This document shows, one piece after another, positions 56,439 to 63,929 of a stretch of 64,000 nucleotides of DNA (within the stretch, counting starts at the first letter, position 1; each line of letters begins with the position of its first letter). Source of the stretch: Crocinitomicaceae bacterium (GTDB taxonomy: Bacteria > Bacteroidota > Bacteroidia > Flavobacteriales_D > Crocinitomicaceae); assembly GCA_022447665.1 (NCBI GenBank), contig JAKVAQ010000028.1:1-64000 (forward strand). The letters are read 5' to 3'. The notes beneath the pieces are model-generated. The model was not told where the DNA came from, ran no database searches, and saw only the letters and a program-made list of their open reading frames with translations. A program made the translations under genes and the position numbers.

Positions 56439-57302
56439 ATGGATACTGTGAAAATGAGAATTGGCGGTGTTCCCGAACACTACAACCTACCAATTCATTT
56501 AGCAAAGGAAGCAGGTGCTTTTTCCAAACGTGGAATCGATCTAGAGTGGACTGATTTTGGAGGAGGTACAGGTCAAATGACTAAGGCTTTGCGCGACAAC
56601 GAAGTAGATATTTGTATTCTGCTTACAGAAGGTATTATTGCCGATATCATTAAGGGCAATAATGCTAAAATTATTTCTGAATACGTATTAACACCGCTTA
56701 CATGGGGTGTACACACAGGTGTTGATAATCCTTTACAAGATTACCGCGATATATACGACAAGAAATATGCGATTTCACGCTATGGTTCAGGTTCTCATTT
56801 AATGGCTATTGTTGACGCTGAAAGTAATGGACATGAATTAAAGCACGAGCAGTTCCATGTCATTAAGAATATTGACGGTGCCTTGCCATCATTAGCCTCT
56901 AACGAAACAGATGTTTTTTATTGGGAAAAGTATACCACCAAGCCTTATGTAGATGAAGGTAAACTAAGACGCATAGGCCAATACAGAACACCTTGGCCTT
57001 GTTTCGTTATTGCTGCCAGAGAAGATATTCTTCAAAAGCATCCGGACCATATTATTCGATTACTTCGAGTAATTCATGACCAATGCGATCGTTTTATGGA
57101 GAATATAGATGCTCCCGCAATTGTATCAAGTCGTTATGGCTTGCAACTTAAAGATGCCGAACGTTGGTACAATTCCACGGAATGGGCTATTCATGGTTGG
57201 GTTTCTGATAAGATGATAGAAAACGTGATCTACCACCTAAGAACAGCAGACATTATTGATGCTGAACAAACGGTACCGGAACTTATTTGGAAAAGGAATT
57301 AA
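56439..57302 (+). CDS. periplasmic-binding-protein-like (type 2) cytoplasmic protein
   Basis: 287 aa. It resembles the NMT1/THI5/SsuA family of substrate-binding proteins and in particular the signal-peptide-free Ca3427-like subgroup: KMRIGGVPEHYNLPIHLAKE, GIDLEWTDFGGGTGQMTKAL, YAISRYGSGSHLMAIVDAE. There is no signal peptide and no ABC transporter gene nearby, so it is not a usual importer part. It may be an enzyme (THI5-like) or sensor. It converges with the 81-aa gene (4-bp overlap) that follows the alpha-oxoamine synthase fusion. Confidence 0.75.
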   Translation: MDTVKMRIGGVPEHYNLPIHLAKEAGAFSKRGIDLEWTDFGGGTGQMTKALRDNEVDICILLTEGIIADIIKGNNAKIISEYVLTPLTWGVHTGVDNPLQDYRDIYDKKYAISRYGSGSHLMAIVDAESNGHELKHEQFHVIKNIDGALPSLASNETDVFYWEKYTTKPYVDEGKLRRIGQYRTPWPCFVIAAREDILQKHPDHIIRLLRVIHDQCDRFMENIDAPAIVSSRYGLQLKDAERWYNSTEWAIHGWVSDKMIENVIYHLRTADIIDAEQTVPELIWKRN

Positions 57303-57544
57303 ACCCTTCCAGTAAGTAAACAAACGTAATCTTCCGAAACGTGTACGGGCTTAATTGAAAGAGTTTTATCTCCTTCGACATGCCGTATATATTCTACCAT
57401 AAATTCAAAAAGACTATAGATTCTAATCTCTAGGTTTTCGTTGATTTTTTGCACAAAAATTAATCGTCCGTGAGCGTCCAAGATTAAAATCTTTGATTCA
57501 TCTGAAAACAAGCAGAATTCTTCTTTAGAAAGTTTGATTTCCAT
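57299..57544 (-). CDS. 81-aa protein coupled to the oxoamine synthase fusion, unknown
   Basis: A small soluble protein with no signal peptide or membrane segment. The start overlaps the stop of the 804-aa fusion (TAATG), so it is translationally coupled to it. The predicted fold is strand-rich (EIKLSKEEFCLFSDESKILI, LIFVQKINENLEIRIYSL). No family recognised. It could be a regulatory subunit or carrier-like protein for the fusion; there is no carrier Ser motif visible. Confidence 0.65.
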   Translation of the reverse strand: MEIKLSKEEFCLFSDESKILILDAHGRLIFVQKINENLEIRIYSLFEFMVEYIRHVEGDKTLSIKPVHVSEDYVCLLTGRV

Positions 57545-59958
57545 TAGACAGCTAGTTTTAATGACTCAATGCTTTCATTCATTAATACTTCCTGATTAAA
57601 AGTATCTGCGCTTTGGATGTAGGCGATGTTCCTCTCTTGCTTTGCGCCTAATTTCTTTTTTTCAATTTCTGCAGAGTATCCGAAATTCACTGCAGAACAT
57701 CCATGAGATTTTGCTTTTTTAATACTTTCCCAAAGTAAATTTCTGTAAGCGTTAAACTCAAAGTTTTTCTCATAGTCTAAACCAATTAATACTGGGTTAT
57801 ATTGATCACGGTTCCATTCGCAAATGATCATTCCCAATAAATGATCTTCCGCCCTAGAGTACAATTCAATTATTTCCCAATCATCCGATTTTGCAACATA
57901 TTCAAAAAATAGTTTTGGAACTTTAAAGGTGTTTAGAGATAGATTTTTGCTTGATACGTTCGAATATAGGTCGTACCATTTCGATATTTGATTTGGATCC
58001 TTATTGACTTTTGAATATATGATGTCTTGAGCGGATAAAATATTATCACGAAAGTGTTTTCGATTTCTTTTGCCAAGTGAAATGATAAACTCATCAATCT
58101 CTATATCTTGAAGGTTCAAGGTGTTTGAATTAGGTAAACTTGATTTAAAAAAACCTAAATCAACCATTAAATGATCCATGTCAGGGTCGTTAGCAACCAT
58201 ATCTCTGAGCATGATTGAGTTGCTCTCCTCCTCCTTCTGTATATTCTCAAGTTCCTTAATCAAAAGATTTAGTGCCTTCAGCTTTACTTGTTTCATTGTA
58301 CATTTCAGGAATAAGTGATTCCCTTCTGTTAAAGGAGTACCAAGCATTGTCACTTTACTAGTCATGAAATAGGGAACATCTTTTCTAACCTCCTCTAATT
58401 CTATAGAAATTTCGGTTGGAGAAAGAAGGTCTTCCTTTAGCAGAGAAGTTGTAATGAAGGTTGAAAGGATAACATTGTCCGAATTGTCTGTTATCAGAAG
58501 GTATTTCATGTTCCAGTTATTTTCAATCCTAGCGTTGTTAGAATAAACATTTTGAAGTCCTCTGAGTGCACTGTAGTTAAAAGAACTCCTTTTTCCAATG
58601 GTGCTATCCCATTTTTCTATCCACTCATCTTTTAGTGAATCAAATAAATGAACTTTTAGGTTATGATTACTTAAATGTGGAATGGCCTTTTCAGAGACGA
58701 ATTTTTCTTCAGGTAATTTCATTTTGAATGCTCTGTAAACTTTTTCAATTGGAAATTCTTCTTCCGATAGGGCGAGGTGATAATTCGTTTCCAAGTCTAC
58801 GACCATTTTTTCTATCTGTTCGAAACTGTGCACTGCTGTTATGGTGAATCTTACACCTGTATTTTTTATTGGTACGGCAGGAAAAATTCCTAGATTTAAA
58901 TAGTGTCCATTACTCATCATTTTTTCTATGATATTGTATGCCACTGAAGGAATTGAAGTACCAATAAAGAATATAGGTGAATCTTTTTCTGATAGATTTG
59001 GGAGACGAGCTTTTTCAAGAAGAAGATGGGTGTATAAAATGTTGTCCTTTAACTTTTTCTGAAATTTTTTAATTTCTCCATTCAGATGAAGGTCGGCAGC
59101 TGCGTTTGCAGCTCCTAGTCCAGCTGGCTGCATCGGTCCTGAAGTAATCATTGGTCCACCACACTTCATTATTAATTCGGCCCATTCTTTTTTACCACAG
59201 ATTATCGCTCCTCCTCCCGAAGCAAATGCCTTGTTTAAAGATGTGCCTACTATTATTTTCTCTGTAATATCAATTTCGCTTAATACGTAACCCTGACCTC
59301 GTTCTCCGAAACAACTCATGGCATGAGCATCATCAATGTAAAGGTTAAAACTAGGATACTTATCCAGAAGATCATTGATTTCATGAATTGGAGCCTTGTC
59401 TCCATACATTGAATAAATCCCGTCTGCCATATACCAAATACGCTCATAATTTTCTCGTTCTTCATCGAGAATTTTCTCTAGTGCTTCAAGATTATTATGC
59501 CTTATTATCCTGACAGTTGTACCTTTTGCTTTACAATTTTGAACGGCCATTTGTACAGAATTATGAACTTGATGATCGAGTACTATTAGGTCATTTGAAC
59601 TAGTAATTACAGGTATTGCAGCAAGATGCCCAAGAGTGGTGGTAGGAGTGACAACAGTATGTCCGCCAAATATTTTATCCAGTTTTTGAGTTAACTCTTG
59701 ATATATACCTAGGCTCAAATATGCTCTTGAAGATGAAAATTGTGTTCCAAATCGATCAATTGCATCTATTGAGTTCTTTTTTAATGACGAATGAAATTCT
59801 AAACCTAAATAACTACAAGAGGCAAAATTCACTACATCCTTGTTCGCAATTAATAAGCGGTTATCACGGATAACTTCATTTTGGGTATGTAGATGCGCGA
59901 TGTTCTTAGATTTAGCATAATCTGCGATGCCTGATACTGTTTCAATAATTGAAGCCAT
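57544..59958 (-). CDS. alpha-oxoamine synthase fused to an acyltransferase-like domain
   Basis: 804 aa. Residues ~1-410 are a PLP-dependent alpha-oxoamine synthase (serine palmitoyltransferase, KBL, BioF, CqsA type): SCSYLGLEFH, LDHQVHNSVQMA (stacking His), YIDDAHAMSCFG (Asp209/210) and GTSLNKAFASGGG (PLP lysine Lys243). These condense an amino acid with an acyl-CoA. Residues ~430-800 look like a GNAT/FemAB-like acyltransferase (LYSRAEDHLLGMIICEW, NLLWESIKKAKSHGCSAVNF). Fusions of this order occur in Bacteroidota. A two-step lipid role (condense, then N-acylate) as in sphingolipid or sulfonolipid synthesis is an attractive inference. It is coupled to an 81-aa gene and divergent from the STAS/kinase operon. 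Confidence 0.85.
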   Translation of the reverse strand: MASIIETVSGIADYAKSKNIAHLHTQNEVIRDNRLLIANKDVVNFASCSYLGLEFHSSLKKNSIDAIDRFGTQFSSSRAYLSLGIYQELTQKLDKIFGGHTVVTPTTTLGHLAAIPVITSSNDLIVLDHQVHNSVQMAVQNCKAKGTTVRIIRHNNLEALEKILDEERENYERIWYMADGIYSMYGDKAPIHEINDLLDKYPSFNLYIDDAHAMSCFGERGQGYVLSEIDITEKIIVGTSLNKAFASGGGAIICGKKEWAELIMKCGGPMITSGPMQPAGLGAANAAADLHLNGEIKKFQKKLKDNILYTHLLLEKARLPNLSEKDSPIFFIGTSIPSVAYNIIEKMMSNGHYLNLGIFPAVPIKNTGVRFTITAVHSFEQIEKMVVDLETNYHLALSEEEFPIEKVYRAFKMKLPEEKFVSEKAIPHLSNHNLKVHLFDSLKDEWIEKWDSTIGKRSSFNYSALRGLQNVYSNNARIENNWNMKYLLITDNSDNVILSTFITTSLLKEDLLSPTEISIELEEVRKDVPYFMTSKVTMLGTPLTEGNHLFLKCTMKQVKLKALNLLIKELENIQKEEESNSIMLRDMVANDPDMDHLMVDLGFFKSSLPNSNTLNLQDIEIDEFIISLGKRNRKHFRDNILSAQDIIYSKVNKDPNQISKWYDLYSNVSSKNLSLNTFKVPKLFFEYVAKSDDWEIIELYSRAEDHLLGMIICEWNRDQYNPVLIGLDYEKNFEFNAYRNLLWESIKKAKSHGCSAVNFGYSAEIEKKKLGAKQERNIAYIQSADTFNQEVLMNESIESLKLAV

Positions 59959-60108
59959 AATTTTATTTTTTTATAGTTCAAAGTTCCACCTATTAAATCG
60001 CTAATTCTTCAGTATTAAATCTGAAAAAAAGGATAAAATAATAAGAGTTTTTCTTAAGTGTAAAAACCTATGTCGATTAATTTTAAAAGACTATCTTAGT
60101 TGATTGTG

Positions 60109-60498
60109 ATGTCAGAAATGAAGTTGTTTGAGGATGAGCATGTTAGGTTTGAGAATATCGATGGTATAATGAGATGCACTTTTTTAAATGGTCCCATTAC
60201 ACTTGAGATTGCTAAAACTATAGTAAAGGAAAGGCTTAAGTTTTTCGATGGTACATCCTACCCAATAATCATTACAGATGTCGGTATCAAGTCAATTAAA
60301 AGTGAAGCCAGGCAGTTCCTTTCTTCAGACGAAGCTTTGGTAGGGATAAAGGCTTCAGCGATGGTAGCAAAAAATATGTTTGCTAAACATCTGGCAAATT
60401 TCTTTGTGAAAATCAATGTTATAAAACCAAAAATCCCGACGCAAATATTTATGAATGAGGATGCTGCGGTTCAATGGTTAGAACAGTTTAAGAATTAA
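60109..60498 (+). CDS. STAS-like protein, paralogue 1 (intact)
   Basis: 129 aa from MSEMKLFEDE. It has the ~125-residue pattern of a Bacteroidota STAS/SpoIIAA-like family (DUF7793 type): a first hydrophobic strand, GPITLEIAKTIVKERL (helix), YPIIITDVGIKSIKSEARQF (strand-loop-helix) and FFVKINVIKPKIPTQIF near the end. It lacks a clear phosphorylatable Ser in the usual STAS position. It is the first and only undamaged of three tandem copies, upstream of a kinase/regulator pair, so it may be a regulator or substrate of a partner-switching system (inference). Confidence 0.7.
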   Translation: MSEMKLFEDEHVRFENIDGIMRCTFLNGPITLEIAKTIVKERLKFFDGTSYPIIITDVGIKSIKSEARQFLSSDEALVGIKASAMVAKNMFAKHLANFFVKINVIKPKIPTQIFMNEDAAVQWLEQFKN

Positions 60499-60513: not shown

Positions 60514-60898
60514 TTGAACAAATTGGGGAAAGTATTTGAAAATAAGTACGTCCGATATGAAGTTATTGAAGGAATACTTTGGGCGACTTATAAAGAAGGT
60601 CCTATAACTTTAGAGGCAGCAAAAGTTTTAGTCGAAGAAAGACTAAGGCTTTCCGAAGGAAATTCTTACCCTTTGCTTATTAGAGATTTCGGTTTAAAGT
60701 CGATCAAAGGAGATGCACGTGATTTTTTTGTTATCAACAGATTACGCAATTCAAGGATTGAAGTCTTCTGCTTTAGTTACGGATAATATTTTTGGTAAGC
60801 ATCTCGCAAACTTTTTTGTCAAAATTAATGTTGTTAAGCCAAAAATTCCAACGCGTATCTTTTCAAAAGAAGACGATGCCTTGGAATGGCTTAAATGA
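60514..60898 (+). pseudogene. STAS-like protein, paralogue 2 (start lost, frameshifted)
   Basis: The first part (KVFENKYVRYEVIEGILWAT) through KGDARDFF aligns with paralogue 1. At a T7 run (60723-60729) the frame shifts. Removing one T restores STDYAIQGLKSSALVTDNIF and HLANFFVKINVVKPKIP to the natural end at 60898 (127 aa). No ATG is present where the paralogues start; only TTG codons. A -7-like TAGCTTTG overlaps the TTG. The start loss and frameshift together argue for a true pseudogene. Confidence 0.75.
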
Positions 60899-60954
60899 TT
60901 TTTATAATCTTTCTCTAAAACTAAATTTCAATTAAATGAGTTGTTTACCGAATC

Positions 60955-61334
60955 ATGGATAAAGTCTATCAAAACGAACACGTTCGCTTCGAACTAAGTA
61001 ATGGAATAGTTAAAGGAACTTTTCTTAAAGGCCCGGTGACGCTCGATGTTACAAAAATGATTGTAAACGAACGGTTAAATTTCTCAGATGGGAATACTTA
61101 TCCTATCATAATTATCGATGCGGGCATAGGTTCAATAAAGAGTGAGGCTAGAAAATACCTCTCATCAGAGAAGGCCAAGAGGGAATTTCTGCATTGGCAA
61201 TATTGGCGAAATCAAGCTTTACCAAGCATATGGCAATTTTTTTTCTACGTATTTCTGCTTATAAAGCGTACATTCCTTTACGTATATTTTCAGATGAAAA
61301 CGAAGCTATAATTTGGCTTTCCCAGTATAAATAG
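60955..61334 (+). pseudogene. STAS-like protein, paralogue 3 (frameshifted)
   Basis: It starts ATG with MDKVYQNEHVRFELSNGIVK and follows the paralogues through SEARKYLSSEKAKR. At a G3 run (61181-61183) one G is missing. Adding it continues GISALAILAKSSFTKHMAIF and ends with IFSDENEAIIWLSQYK and TAG at 61334 (126 aa). As it stands translation ends in an unrelated tail. The three copies share gene order and spacing, pointing to tandem duplication followed by decay of two copies. Confidence 0.75.
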
Positions 61335-61391
61335 TTTTTCTAAATTCCTTTGGGGGATTAATATTTATATTTGGGAAAGATTGCTTACAAT

Positions 61392-62540
61392 ATGTCAGAC
61401 AAAGACCAAATAAACAGAATATCTGAACTTCTTCTTGAGTATTCTGCCGGTAACTACAGTTTTAAGGCCGAGATAGGAGAAGATTTAAACGAGCTCGATA
61501 TGATTATCTCGGGCATTAATATGCTCGGAGAGGAGTTGGAATCTTCTAACGTTTCCACGGAATATTTCTCAAGTATTTTTAACGCTGTTTCTGATCTTGT
61601 AATTATTATCGATAAAAATGATGAGGTAAAAGACGCTAACGAAGCCTTTTCTAAGTTCTTTTCATCTAAAGATTTTAACTATAAAGAGACACTTGATGCA
61701 GTTCTTGAGAATTCTGGAAATTCTCTGAAATCAATAAAAGCCAAGCTTGAGAATAAAAGACTCTATCAGTTCGAAACTTGGTTAAGAAATGATCATGTAA
61801 GAATAGATGTTGTCGCTTTAGTTTCAAAAATTATAAATCGTTTTGATGAATTCGAAGGGTATTTGTTCAGCTTCAGAGATGTAAGTGCTGAAAAAGAAAG
61901 TGAGAAGGCAGTATTGAAGGCAATCTTCATAACACAGCAGAATGAGCAAAAACGTGTGGCAGATGATCTTCATGATTCCTTGGGTCAGGAGCTTTCTATG
62001 ACCAAACTAATGTTAAGTCATTTAAAGAAAGAAGTTGGGGAAGAAGAAAAAGCCCTTAAACTTGTGAATACCTGTTCCGAAATTATGGAGGGATCAATAA
62101 AGCATTTACGAGAGATCTGCTTTAATCTTATGCCGGGGGTCCTTAACAGAGGTGGATTAGGGATAGCGCTGAAGGATCTTGTTTCTCGATTAGAACGACA
62201 AAATGACTTTAAGACGATCATTGCGCTTCCAGATATTCCGAGAATTGATCCTGAACTAGAAGTGGCTATTTATCGTATTGCACAGGAGTTTATCAATAAT
62301 ATGATTAAGCATTCTAATGCTGACGAATTAGAATTAACGCTTGACTTTAAAGAGAATGAATCAATAAAAATCCACCTTAAAGATAATGGTCAAGGCTTTA
62401 ATATGCAAGAGCTTGAAAAAGTGGGCGAGAATCGAGGATACTCAAATCTTAAGAGTAAAACACAAGCTTTTAACGGAGAACTCGTTTACAAAAGTGAGAT
62501 AGGTAAAGGCACTTTCATTATCTTAGATTTTCCGTTATGA
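61392..62540 (+). CDS. soluble PAS-containing sensor histidine kinase (NarX-like, HisKA_3)
   Basis: 382 aa from the ATG at 61392 (a TTG upstream is less likely). No membrane helix. A HAMP-like segment (5-50) precedes a PAS domain (about 55-165: FNAVSDLVIIIDKNDEVKDA, EGYLFSFRDVSAEKE). HisKA_3 dimerisation domain with VADDLHDSLGQE (His194) and HATPase with FINNMIKHSNA, LKDNGQGFNMQ and GYSNLKSKTQAFNG. It is coupled to the following response regulator by a 4-bp overlap (ATGA), so they form a two-component pair. The STAS genes immediately upstream probably belong to the same unit. Confidence 0.9.
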   Translation: MSDKDQINRISELLLEYSAGNYSFKAEIGEDLNELDMIISGINMLGEELESSNVSTEYFSSIFNAVSDLVIIIDKNDEVKDANEAFSKFFSSKDFNYKETLDAVLENSGNSLKSIKAKLENKRLYQFETWLRNDHVRIDVVALVSKIINRFDEFEGYLFSFRDVSAEKESEKAVLKAIFITQQNEQKRVADDLHDSLGQELSMTKLMLSHLKKEVGEEEKALKLVNTCSEIMEGSIKHLREICFNLMPGVLNRGGLGIALKDLVSRLERQNDFKTIIALPDIPRIDPELEVAIYRIAQEFINNMIKHSNADELELTLDFKENESIKIHLKDNGQGFNMQELEKVGENRGYSNLKSKTQAFNGELVYKSEIGKGTFIILDFPL

Positions 62541-63223
62541 CCCAAAACAGAAAAAAAATACTTGTTTTATTGGTGGATGACCATAAACTCGTGCGCACAG
62601 GTATCCGCTTTACGTTAGAGCAATCGAATATTCGAGAAGAAATCGATAGAATTGATGAAGCAGAAAATGGAGAAATGGCTGTTAAAATGGACTTTCTCTC
62701 GAATTATGATCTCATTTTTATGGATATCAATATGCCATTCAAGGATGGAATAAAAACGACTGCAGAAATCAAGAACCAGAATAAAAATGCTAAGATCATA
62801 GCTTTGTCCATGATCAATGATCAATTTGAGATTCGAAGCATGTTGAAAGCAGGTGCGTCTGGTTATTTATTAAAGGATACTGGATCTGAGGTACTTGAGG
62901 CCTGTGTGAGAAAAGTCTTGGATGGAGGTAATTATTTCTCTAACGATGTAGCCCTTACATTAATGGAGCCAAGTAACCTAGACCTAATGGATGCTGACCG
63001 TTTAAAACCAGGTTCACTTAAGTTAAAAGAATCTGGTCTAACAAAGCGAGAGTTAGAAGTACTTACATTGATTGCTAAAGAGTATACAAACGAAGAAATT
63101 TCGGATAAGCTCTCGCTGTCCAAACGAACGGTAGACTCTCACCGTCAGAATATTCTTAGAAAAACGGACGCAAAGAATACTGCTGGACTAATTAAGTTCG
63201 CTTTTCGCCTCGGCATTATATAA
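62537..63223 (+). CDS. NarL/FixJ-family response regulator
   Basis: 228 aa. Receiver domain with acidic pair DD (14-15), phosphorylated Asp63 (IFMDINMPFKDG), then LSM and GASGYLLKD (Lys). C-terminal LuxR-type helix-turn-helix (LTKRELEVLTLIAKEYTNEE, SKRTVDSHRQNIL). It receives phosphate from the upstream kinase and binds DNA. Target genes are not known; the AOS fusion divergent from the operon is a candidate. Confidence 0.93.
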   Translation: MTQNRKKILVLLVDDHKLVRTGIRFTLEQSNIREEIDRIDEAENGEMAVKMDFLSNYDLIFMDINMPFKDGIKTTAEIKNQNKNAKIIALSMINDQFEIRSMLKAGASGYLLKDTGSEVLEACVRKVLDGGNYFSNDVALTLMEPSNLDLMDADRLKPGSLKLKESGLTKRELEVLTLIAKEYTNEEISDKLSLSKRTVDSHRQNILRKTDAKNTAGLIKFAFRLGII

Positions 63224-63449: not shown

Positions 63450-63929
63450 ATGAAACCTGTCATCTACCTTTTAGAAGAACAAACCCATCAGACTGGTTCC
63501 CGGATAATAAAAGCACTCGCCGACAAATTATTAAAGGGCGTGATAGAATATGATTTTACAATCAGGCAATTAAATTTATCAAGAGATTTCGTTAACGTAT
63601 TTGAAAATGAATTTGGTACTCTAGGTTTCTTTTGCCATGAGGATGATCGTTATTCGCCAAAAAGATTGATCCAATTTATGGAGGAGGAAGGATGTAATAT
63701 GATATTTTGTACATCCACATTAAAGGGCAGTATTAAGGAATCATATGATGCTTTACCGTTCTCCGCCTATGTCTTAAAAGAAGTTTCTTCTATTTTCTCT
63801 CCAATGGTAGATATAGAAACATTGGTGGATTATAGGGCAGAGAAATTAGCAGAGCGTGTAGAATTTTATCTGGATGACCTTAAAGATGAACGATCTAATA
63901 ACATGCGATTGCGTAGTATGGTTATTTAG
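63450..63929 (+). CDS. hypothetical protein, alpha/beta fold
   Basis: 159 aa, soluble, no signal peptide. It begins MKPVIYLLEEQTHQTGSRII, and two central strands (FGTLGFFCHEDDRY, CNMIFCTSTLKGS) suggest a Rossmann-like or receiver-like fold, but no phospho-Asp or binding motif is clear. It does not belong to a family I recognise. It lies after the terminator of the regulator gene and ends 8 bp into a convergent partial gene. Confidence 0.6.
   Translation: MKPVIYLLEEQTHQTGSRIIKALADKLLKGVIEYDFTIRQLNLSRDFVNVFENEFGTLGFFCHEDDRYSPKRLIQFMEEEGCNMIFCTSTLKGSIKESYDALPFSAYVLKEVSSIFSPMVDIETLVDYRAEKLAERVEFYLDDLKDERSNNMRLRSMVI

Follow-up and report, generated by a model that had tools for sequence, protein, structure and literature searches.

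An alpha-oxoamine synthase-acyltransferase fusion of Bacteroidota as the possible synthase of a conserved, autoinducer-like synthase-sensor cassette

Alpha-hydroxyketones are made and sensed by clusters that combine a synthase of the alpha-oxoamine synthase (AOS) type with a kinase and, in some cases, a regulator (PMC3376566). In such systems, Cqs (CqsA-CqsS) and Lqs (LqsA-LqsS-LqsR), the AOS-superfamily synthase lies beside a histidine kinase, to which a response regulator may be added, and few other genes are involved. Other AOS relatives feed secondary metabolism, as in the case of albogrisin Alb29 and saxitoxin SxtA (PMC11906848), while SulA/CFAT enzymes are recognised by a signature lysine of the active site, Lys281 of SulA (PMC9304779). 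The window analysed here, the whole stretch of 64,000 nucleotides from a Crocinitomicaceae bacterium, encodes an AOS domain fused to an acyltransferase-like region and, divergently, STAS, sensor and regulator genes (Table 1). The literature searched contains no paper on this fusion or on DUF7793, and it revealed no chemical autoinducer system that is widespread among Bacteroidota lineages. Because a conserved sensor/regulator set like that of known chemical-signalling systems adjoins the fusion across many Bacteroidota, the locus is a candidate for signalling and not for an ordinary pathway to membrane lipids; the surroundings of the fusion, and not lipid chemistry, are the real finding. With confidence just below even, the fusion is read as the synthase of a conserved, autoregulated synthase-sensor cassette, autoinducer-like, that would make an N-acyl-alpha-aminoketone, plausibly a signal.

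Table 1. Features of the locus, in positions of the window
Feature	Position	Strand	Basis
Gene of the small protein (81 aa), coupled to the fusion by TAATG	57299..57544	-	overlap, homologues, AF2
Whole fusion gene, 804 aa	57544..59958	-	ORF list, confirmed as originally placed
FemAB/GNAT-superfamily acyltransferase-like region, fusion aa 434-797	57568..58659	-	PF13480, PF04339, AF2
AOS domain (PLP-dependent, Claisen-condensing), fusion aa 1-405	58744..59958	-	Pfam PF00155, conserved residues, AF2 model, tree
Predicted response-regulator site TAAGTGTAAAAACCTA, 7-2-7 palindrome, shared divergent promoter	60055..60070	.	motif scan
STAS-like protein (DUF7793), ORF from TTG	60100..60498	+	PF25056 E 3e-29
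Second copy of STAS, split between two frames	60514..60901	+	PF25056 halves 60562-60735 and 60743-60901; split ORFs
Third copy of STAS, split between two frames	60955..61331	+	PF25056 halves 60988-61173 and 61164-61331
Cytosolic sensor module (HAMP-like helix and PAS), kinase N-terminus	61371..61919	+	module recurs in fusion-linked HisKA_3, HisKA-REC hybrid and AraC proteins
Histidine kinase (PAS, HisKA_3, HATPase_c)	61371..62540	+	Pfam; no transmembrane helix by hydropathy
Response regulator, LuxR/NarL-type DNA-binding domain	62537..63223	+	PF00072 and PF00196
159-aa protein, unknown function	63450..63929	+	downstream of regulator in 7 non-redundant loci

The fusion protein and its clade

The original prediction described an AOS-acyltransferase fusion with a complete PLP site, and the ORF, Pfam matches and residue conservation bear this out. 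The Aminotran_1_2 match spans aa 40-386 (E 4e-22), the DDAH motif occupies aa 209-212, and K243 (codon 59230-59232) is the PLP lysine; H132, D209, H212 and K243, which correspond to H133, D204, H207 and K236 of Escherichia coli BioF, are invariant in 26 of 26 aligned fusions, and R370 (BioF R361) is kept in 25 of them, the remaining row being a gap. The PLP lysine, DxxH motif, stacking His and carboxylate-binding Arg that define the superfamily are thus all present. The AF2 model superimposes on KBL, SPT, ThAOS and Alb29 with Z 44-45 and rmsd 2.0-2.5 over about 380 residues, and Alb29 is the best PDB match of the AOS domain by sequence. Full-length counterparts of 33-49% identity occur in 11 of 58 relatives, and the GTDB species set has at least 577 related stretches, which rules out an ORF artefact; a viral or plasmid origin was rejected, as no relative is present in the viral contigs searched and none of the plasmid records searched covers 80% of the fusion.

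Domain matches and catalytic residues likewise agree with the claim that one protein unites a complete AOS with a domain of N-acyltransferase type. Beyond a flexible linker (aa 421-431), the C-terminal region is confidently modelled by AF2 and matches Acetyltransf_6/GNAT (PF13480) over aa 648-767 with 24.1 bits, above the gathering cut-off of 22 and hence of GNAT/FemAB type; the PDB fold search with the whole fusion model returned a list filled by the AOS domain. PF13480 is found in 40 of 58 family members (E<=0.01) and PF04339 FemAB_like in 15 of 58, and K508, D510, E522 and R525 are conserved charged residues of this region.

In the tree, the fusion AOS domains are the sister clade of the uncharacterised PRK07505 clade, with which they group at 100/100 support, and an equally supported split (100/100) excludes them from the BioF/KBL/SPT/CFAT group. 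The phylogeny proposed in the original prediction thus yields a third clade, neither the SPT/CFAT side that it favoured nor the BioF/KBL side that it named as the contrary outcome. The scores against family models (curated cut-offs in brackets) agree with the tree for SPT of Bacteroidota (NF047600, 165 bits [640]), BioF (TIGR00858, 155 [426]) and KBL (TIGR01822, 120 [493]), and also for PRK07505 (NF005697, 272.8 [342]), of which the fusion is a sister and not a member. For the CqsA/LqsA alpha-hydroxyketone synthases, compared through family-model scores, the tree being built without CqsA sequences, the fusion reaches 74 bits with NF005526 (428), below the KBL (191), BioF (153) and CFAT (154) paralogues of the same genome. 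The separate CFAT/SulA orthologue encoded there (L008) scores 573 bits to PDB 28eh, the fusion 78; at the column of Lys281 this paralogue has K and the fusions G, H, V or A.

A conserved neighbourhood and a predicted promoter site

The divergent STAS and two-component genes pointed out at the outset are real, and linked to the fusion far more strongly than had been guessed. Among 65 non-redundant loci, 44 combine the fusion with a STAS (DUF7793) gene and a soluble HAMP/PAS-type sensor, a STAS gene adjoins the fusion in 48 and some STAS or kinase-type neighbour occurs in 54; most of the other 11 belong to coherent subclades, which indicates that the enzyme can work unlinked. A kinase-like gene lies within 1.5 kb at 51 of 65 fusion loci versus about 6 of 30 housekeeping AOS loci; Fisher comparisons of locus counts treat related loci as independent. 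One sensor module is coupled to three outputs, namely a HisKA_3 kinase with a LuxR-type regulator, a hybrid kinase (module match at E ~1e-32 to 1e-47) or an AraC factor (1e-11 to 1e-21). At full length it is present in 12 of 13 fusion-bearing relatives versus 1 of 46 others, and across 392 sampled Bacteroidota genomes, of which about 10 carry the fusion, it sits beside the fusion in 9 of the 10; lower-scoring modules of like kind also occur in genomes without it. By hydropathy, kinases beside Bacteroidota fusions have no transmembrane helices, with rare exceptions; the L116 kinases have six. Seven other DUF7793 genes examined in this genome have no kinase neighbour; the likelier start of the intact STAS-like gene is the ATG at 60109. 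Fusion, STAS protein, sensor and output very probably constitute one functional cassette.

The shared promoter carries a predicted site of NarL/FixJ type, a TACGTNT-N2-ANACGTA-type 7-2-7 inverted repeat, which is the sole match of this 16-bp palindrome in the window (0.04 expected). By leave-one-out, the palindrome is found in 21 of 27 divergent fusion promoters with a response regulator versus 22 of 333 control regions, and in none of 10 fusion promoters whose output is not a LuxR-type regulator; at loci not used for motif building, it is present in 4 of 11 with a response regulator versus 0 of 17 without. The linked regulator thus probably acts at the shared fusion promoter, as judged from the motif. 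A genome-wide regulon was rejected and none is claimed, since the scan gave 7 sites, few of them cleanly intergenic, versus 4 for the reversed control pattern.

On the other side, the stop of the fusion and the start of the 81-aa gene overlap as TAATG (57546-57542), and both ORFs lie exactly where the original prediction put them. Of 90 fusion loci, 35 have a homologue of the 81-aa gene next to the fusion, and the AF2 model is a single compact alpha+beta domain (pLDDT 89), so the ORF is a real gene; the protein matches nothing in Pfam, and its model nothing in the PDB fold search at E<=0.001. The proposed survey of this neighbour had a mixed outcome: a subset of the family keeps it next to the fusion, while the majority of non-redundant fusion loci lack it. 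A substrate-binding protein gene (56439-57302) was rejected as part of the cassette, its place beside the fusion not being conserved.

Signal, regulated metabolite or lipid

In the proposed mechanism, the AOS domain would condense an amino acid with an acyl thioester into an alpha-aminoketone and CO2, and the fused FemAB/GNAT domain would then N-acylate the amine; that one protein carries out both condensation and N-acylation is somewhat favoured. The HAMP/PAS sensor, with the STAS protein, would respond to the product or a derivative, and the LuxR-type regulator, by binding the 7-2-7 palindrome that separates the divergent genes, would control the synthase along with the regulator's own operon. 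That the product is a signal sensed by the cassette has not quite an even chance. The intact catalytic residues and the Cqs/Lqs parallel count in its favour, as do three rhizobial plasmids on which an AOS of the PRK07505-type sister clade is directly followed by a LuxR protein with an autoinducer-binding domain. Against it count the other rhizobial members of this clade without a LuxR neighbour, the sensor-like modules of fusion-free genomes and the lack of a transmembrane helix in the sensor; two-component control of a plain biosynthetic gene would also look much alike. A rhizobial split version of the system (AOS, LuxR and a separate GNAT) was discarded: the AOS-LuxR pairing recurs and the GNAT neighbour does not, so its adjacency is probably incidental; the Aureimonas homologue lies in a polysaccharide cluster.

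PAS domains also serve in redox or metabolite sensing. The main rival to signalling is a regulated non-signal metabolite or lipid, a real possibility although rather doubtful: the PAS sensor would track redox state, nutrient supply or stress, and the regulator would switch on synthesis of an N-acyl-aminoketone that is itself not sensed and would be an antibiotic, a pigment precursor or a protective or minor lipid. Such a switch fits the cytosolic location of the sensor, the predicted regulator site within the synthase promoter, the secondary-metabolite relatives Alb29 and SxtA (PMC11906848) and the MFS transporters that adjoin the Klebsiella and Pantoea relatives. It fits less well with the constant sensor and changing output, a combination that makes more sense if the input is the cassette's own, and with the lack of conserved export, tailoring or precursor genes: within 5 kb of the fusion no pathway gene is conserved (no reductase, ACP, acyl-CoA synthetase or transporter).

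The original prediction itself, a pathway in which the fusion both initiates and N-acylates a membrane lipid of the sphingolipid or capnine type with the help of the 81-aa protein, is improbable. While AOS and N-acyltransferase chemistry match the way in which synthesis of such lipids begins and ends and Bacteroidota make sulfonolipids (PMC9304779), the clade outside SPT and CFAT, the residues replacing Lys281, the genome's own CFAT/SulA paralogue, with KBL and BioF besides, and the missing pathway genes, a 3-keto reductase among them, rule it out as the main reading; the rarity of the fusion in Bacteroidota and the patchy occurrence of the small protein also speak against it. This removes a wrong lead, in that annotation of the fusion as a sphingolipid/sulfonolipid-synthesis enzyme should be avoided. 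A FemAB-type aminoacyl- or peptidyl-transferase, which would yield an aminoacylated ketone or modified surface component instead of an acyl amide, could account for the FemAB_like matches and the conserved charged residues, and is very improbable given the commoner PF13480 and a cluster in which no gene points to cell-wall precursors.

Comparison with known systems

The enzymes nearest to the fusion differ from it in architecture or clade. PRK07505/NF005697 proteins of rhizobial and enterobacterial plasmids are sister AOS enzymes that share the N-to-C change at the BioF Asn47 position but are unfused and about 30% identical. SulA/CFAT and SPT share the AOS fold and PLP chemistry (Z 39.6-44 to the fusion model) and differ in clade and, as to Lys281, in signature. 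Mycobacterium tuberculosis BioF2 (Rv0032), compared by its description, also has an extra domain fused to the AOS domain, but this is N-terminal and the protein is reported to be most similar to SPTs (PMC12910592); Alb29 is a single-domain enzyme of a natural-product pathway with L-glutamate as substrate (PMC11906848).

The candidate signalling cassette shares with CqsA/LqsA-type loci the linkage of a synthase to a sensor kinase and regulator. In comparison, its AOS comes from a different clade and has an acyltransferase fused on, its sensor is a cytosolic HAMP/PAS protein whereas CqsS and LqsS are multi-transmembrane membrane receptors, and it adds a STAS protein and a palindrome in the shared promoter. 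An undescribed quorum-sensing-type system of Bacteroidota, with an N-acyl-alpha-aminoketone made by one bifunctional enzyme, a soluble HAMP/PAS receptor and STAS partner, interchangeable outputs and positive feedback through the 7-2-7 site, is put forward tentatively, as a minority expectation; equally tentatively, its signal would blend the N-acyl idea of AHLs with the aminoketone idea of CAI-1. Combining a synthase of AOS type with its own dedicated sensor and a predicted site for the regulator, it is a compact and directly testable candidate autoinducer system, whose gene set is available in cultured strains of Crocinitomix, Pontibacter, Ferruginibacter and Aequorivita. By analogy, the cassette appears to work like the Cqs/Lqs autoinducer systems, yet it is not a member of them.

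The fusion and its alpha-oxoamine synthase domain

The 804-aa fusion and its small downstream gene lie, on ORF reading, exactly where the original prediction had placed them, TAATG coupling included; its PLP site is equally borne out (DDAH at residues 209-212, PLP lysine K243), and Pfam returns the expected architecture, an AOS-type aminotransferase fold followed by a GNAT domain (PF13480).

Features of the fusion locus in the window
Feature	Position	Context	Basis
Fusion gene, 804 aa	57544-59958 (-)		ORF reading
81-aa ORF, TAATG-coupled to fusion	57299-57544 (-)		ORF reading
Predicted regulator site (palindrome)	60055-60070	shared divergent promoter	sole match in 64 kb, 0.04 expected

The AOS site is complete: counterparts of Escherichia coli BioF H133, D204, H207 and K236, residues whose functional roles are established for AOS enzymes, do not vary among 26 aligned fusions, and that of R361 is conserved in 25, the remaining row being a gap. 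In the AlphaFold2 model (pLDDT 89.7, pTM 0.83), the first 400 residues superpose on ThAOS, KBL, Alb29 and SPT with Z of 44-45 and rmsd of 2.0-2.5 A over about 380 residues. In a tree of 40 AOS sequences (support as paired values), the fusions form a single group (91/91), joined to the PRK07505 proteins at 100/100; most members of both carry Cys at the Asn47 position of BioF, KBL, SPT and CFAT. The domain stands apart from BioF and KBL, and equally apart from SPT and CFAT. Identity with any of these four is rejected on the tree split (100/100), with which the NCBIfam scores agree, all under their curated cut-offs (PRK07505 273 bits, SPT 165, BioF 155, CqsA 74). The window's genome has its own KBL, BioF-like and CFAT/SulA-like enzymes; the SulA signature lysine (PMC9304779) is kept in the last of these and absent from every fusion examined.

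The fused C-terminal acyltransferase-type region matches PF13480 in 40 of 58 members and PF04339 in 15, which by sequence assigns it to the GNAT/FemAB superfamily.

Full-length relatives (33-49% identity) occur in 11 of 58 neighbouring genomes; the GTDB species set contains at least 577 related stretches, the best 80 of which fall in Flavobacteriales, Chitinophagales, Saprospirales and Cytophagales, with a few in Pseudomonadota and Cyanobacteriota MAGs; Crocinitomix holds the closest named relatives among the matches listed. One contig labelled Beijerinckiaceae (L096) carries a fusion nesting within Chitinophagaceae, so that its label is probably a binning error. Since 10 of 392 evenly sampled Bacteroidota genomes have it, the fusion is widespread yet patchy in this phylum; the gene is old and under selection.

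A conserved gene neighbourhood

The main finding is the neighbourhood of the fusion: at 44 of 65 non-redundant loci it is accompanied by a STAS-like DUF7793 protein and one type of sensor, while at 11 both STAS and kinase are absent from the vicinity. The sensor, a soluble module of about 175 aa at the N-terminus, consists of a HAMP-like helix (our reading of the sequence; Pfam HAMP gives no match) followed by PAS, and is coupled to one of three outputs: HisKA_3/HATPase plus a separate LuxR-type regulator (the window's case), HisKA-HATPase-REC hybrids in Pontibacter, or an AraC DNA-binding domain in Flavobacteriaceae. Gene order differs (divergent or single operon); the gene set is retained. 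Among 59 relatives, the full-length module is present in 12 of 13 genomes with a whole or partial fusion versus 1 of 46 without; in the 392-genome sample it adjoins the fusion in nine of ten carriers, weaker relatives of it being found elsewhere. A kinase-like gene lies within 1.5 kb at 51/65 fusion loci versus about 6/30 housekeeping AOS loci (duplicates taken out by eye), and p-values for such contrasts are optimistic because the loci are related. As a further control, seven of the other DUF7793 genes in the window's genome were read, and none has a kinase neighbour. Across non-redundant loci, the 5 kb around the fusion contain no further conserved pathway gene. The open-access papers searched yielded no literature on the fusion or the cassette.

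DUF7793 is abundant in this genome (about 11 loci); two further tandem copies follow the intact one (60514-60901 and 60955-61331), each split over two frames, and are either decayed duplicates or sequencing/assembly slips. Several Flavobacteriaceae loci (L156:5456-6982, likewise L158-L160) carry a 504-513-aa MauE-domain protein after the AraC-type sensor.

The survey originally suggested for the 81-aa gene found homologues after the fusion at 35 of 90 loci, or 24 of the 65 non-redundant ones, with 16-33% identity to the window copy. The protein has a confidently predicted fold, one alpha+beta domain, with no convincing Pfam family and no PDB fold match at E<=0.001. As most non-redundant loci lack it, it is dispensable to the overall design; our guess is that it partners or stabilises the enzyme in some family members. 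A Ca3427-like/NMT1 periplasmic-binding-type gene (56439-57302), convergent with it over a 4-base overlap, is not conserved beside the fusion at the loci compared.

A regulator-dependent palindrome

A 16-bp palindrome, best form TACGTNT-N2-ANACGTA, recurs in the divergent promoters, with the 7-2-7 layout known from NarL-type regulators. Leave-one-out scoring puts it at 8 bits or more in 21 of the 27 promoters whose locus has a LuxR-type regulator, versus 22 of 333 intergenic regions elsewhere and none of 10 promoters where the sensor has a different output. Refitting on shuffled promoters reached at most 16/27 at 6 bits, versus 24 observed, and loci outside motif building gave 4/11 with the regulator versus 0/17 without. 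In the window, the predicted site is upstream of both genes, by about 97 bases for the fusion and 30 for the STAS ORF, a position that would fit autoregulation of both divergent transcripts.

Proposed working and comparison with known systems

The AOS domain would catalyse a condensation giving an aminoketone which, as the fusion itself suggests, the acyltransferase-type domain may then N-acylate; the regulator would control transcription from the shared promoter and, more speculatively, the sensor and STAS protein might read the enzyme's product. That this product acts as a signal is plausible, if just short of probable; it is favoured by the retention of the sensor while its output swaps, by the lack of any other conserved pathway gene in the 5 kb around the fusion, and by the service of AOS enzymes as autoinducer synthases adjoining kinases in Cqs and Lqs clusters (PMC3376566). 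Plain regulation of metabolite production, which is possible if on the doubtful side, would give much the same gene picture, and the cytosolic sensor, missing from some fusion subclades, speaks against signalling.

On three rhizobial plasmids (L054:4441-6434, L052:5941-7928, L190:3501-5518), though not on all those examined, standalone PRK07505 AOS genes of the sister clade come directly before genes for LuxR proteins that carry an autoinducer-binding domain, a candidate second signalling pair. On Klebsiella and Pantoea plasmids (L051:4823-7164, L057:4432-6838) a PRK07505 AOS is paired with an MFS transporter, the Pantoea pair adjoining fatty-acid and biotin-carboxylase-type genes. In a Cyanobacteriota MAG (L116:5842-11320), the histidine kinases on either side of the fusion are near-duplicates with six hydrophobic segments each, an architecture nearer to membrane autoinducer receptors.

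By comparison with the Cqs/Lqs clusters, the cassette works similarly yet is not a member, because the fusion, at 74 bits, falls below the 428 that the CqsA model requires and scores lower on that model than the genome's own KBL, BioF and CFAT, its receptor has no membrane domain, and its AOS is fused to an acyltransferase.
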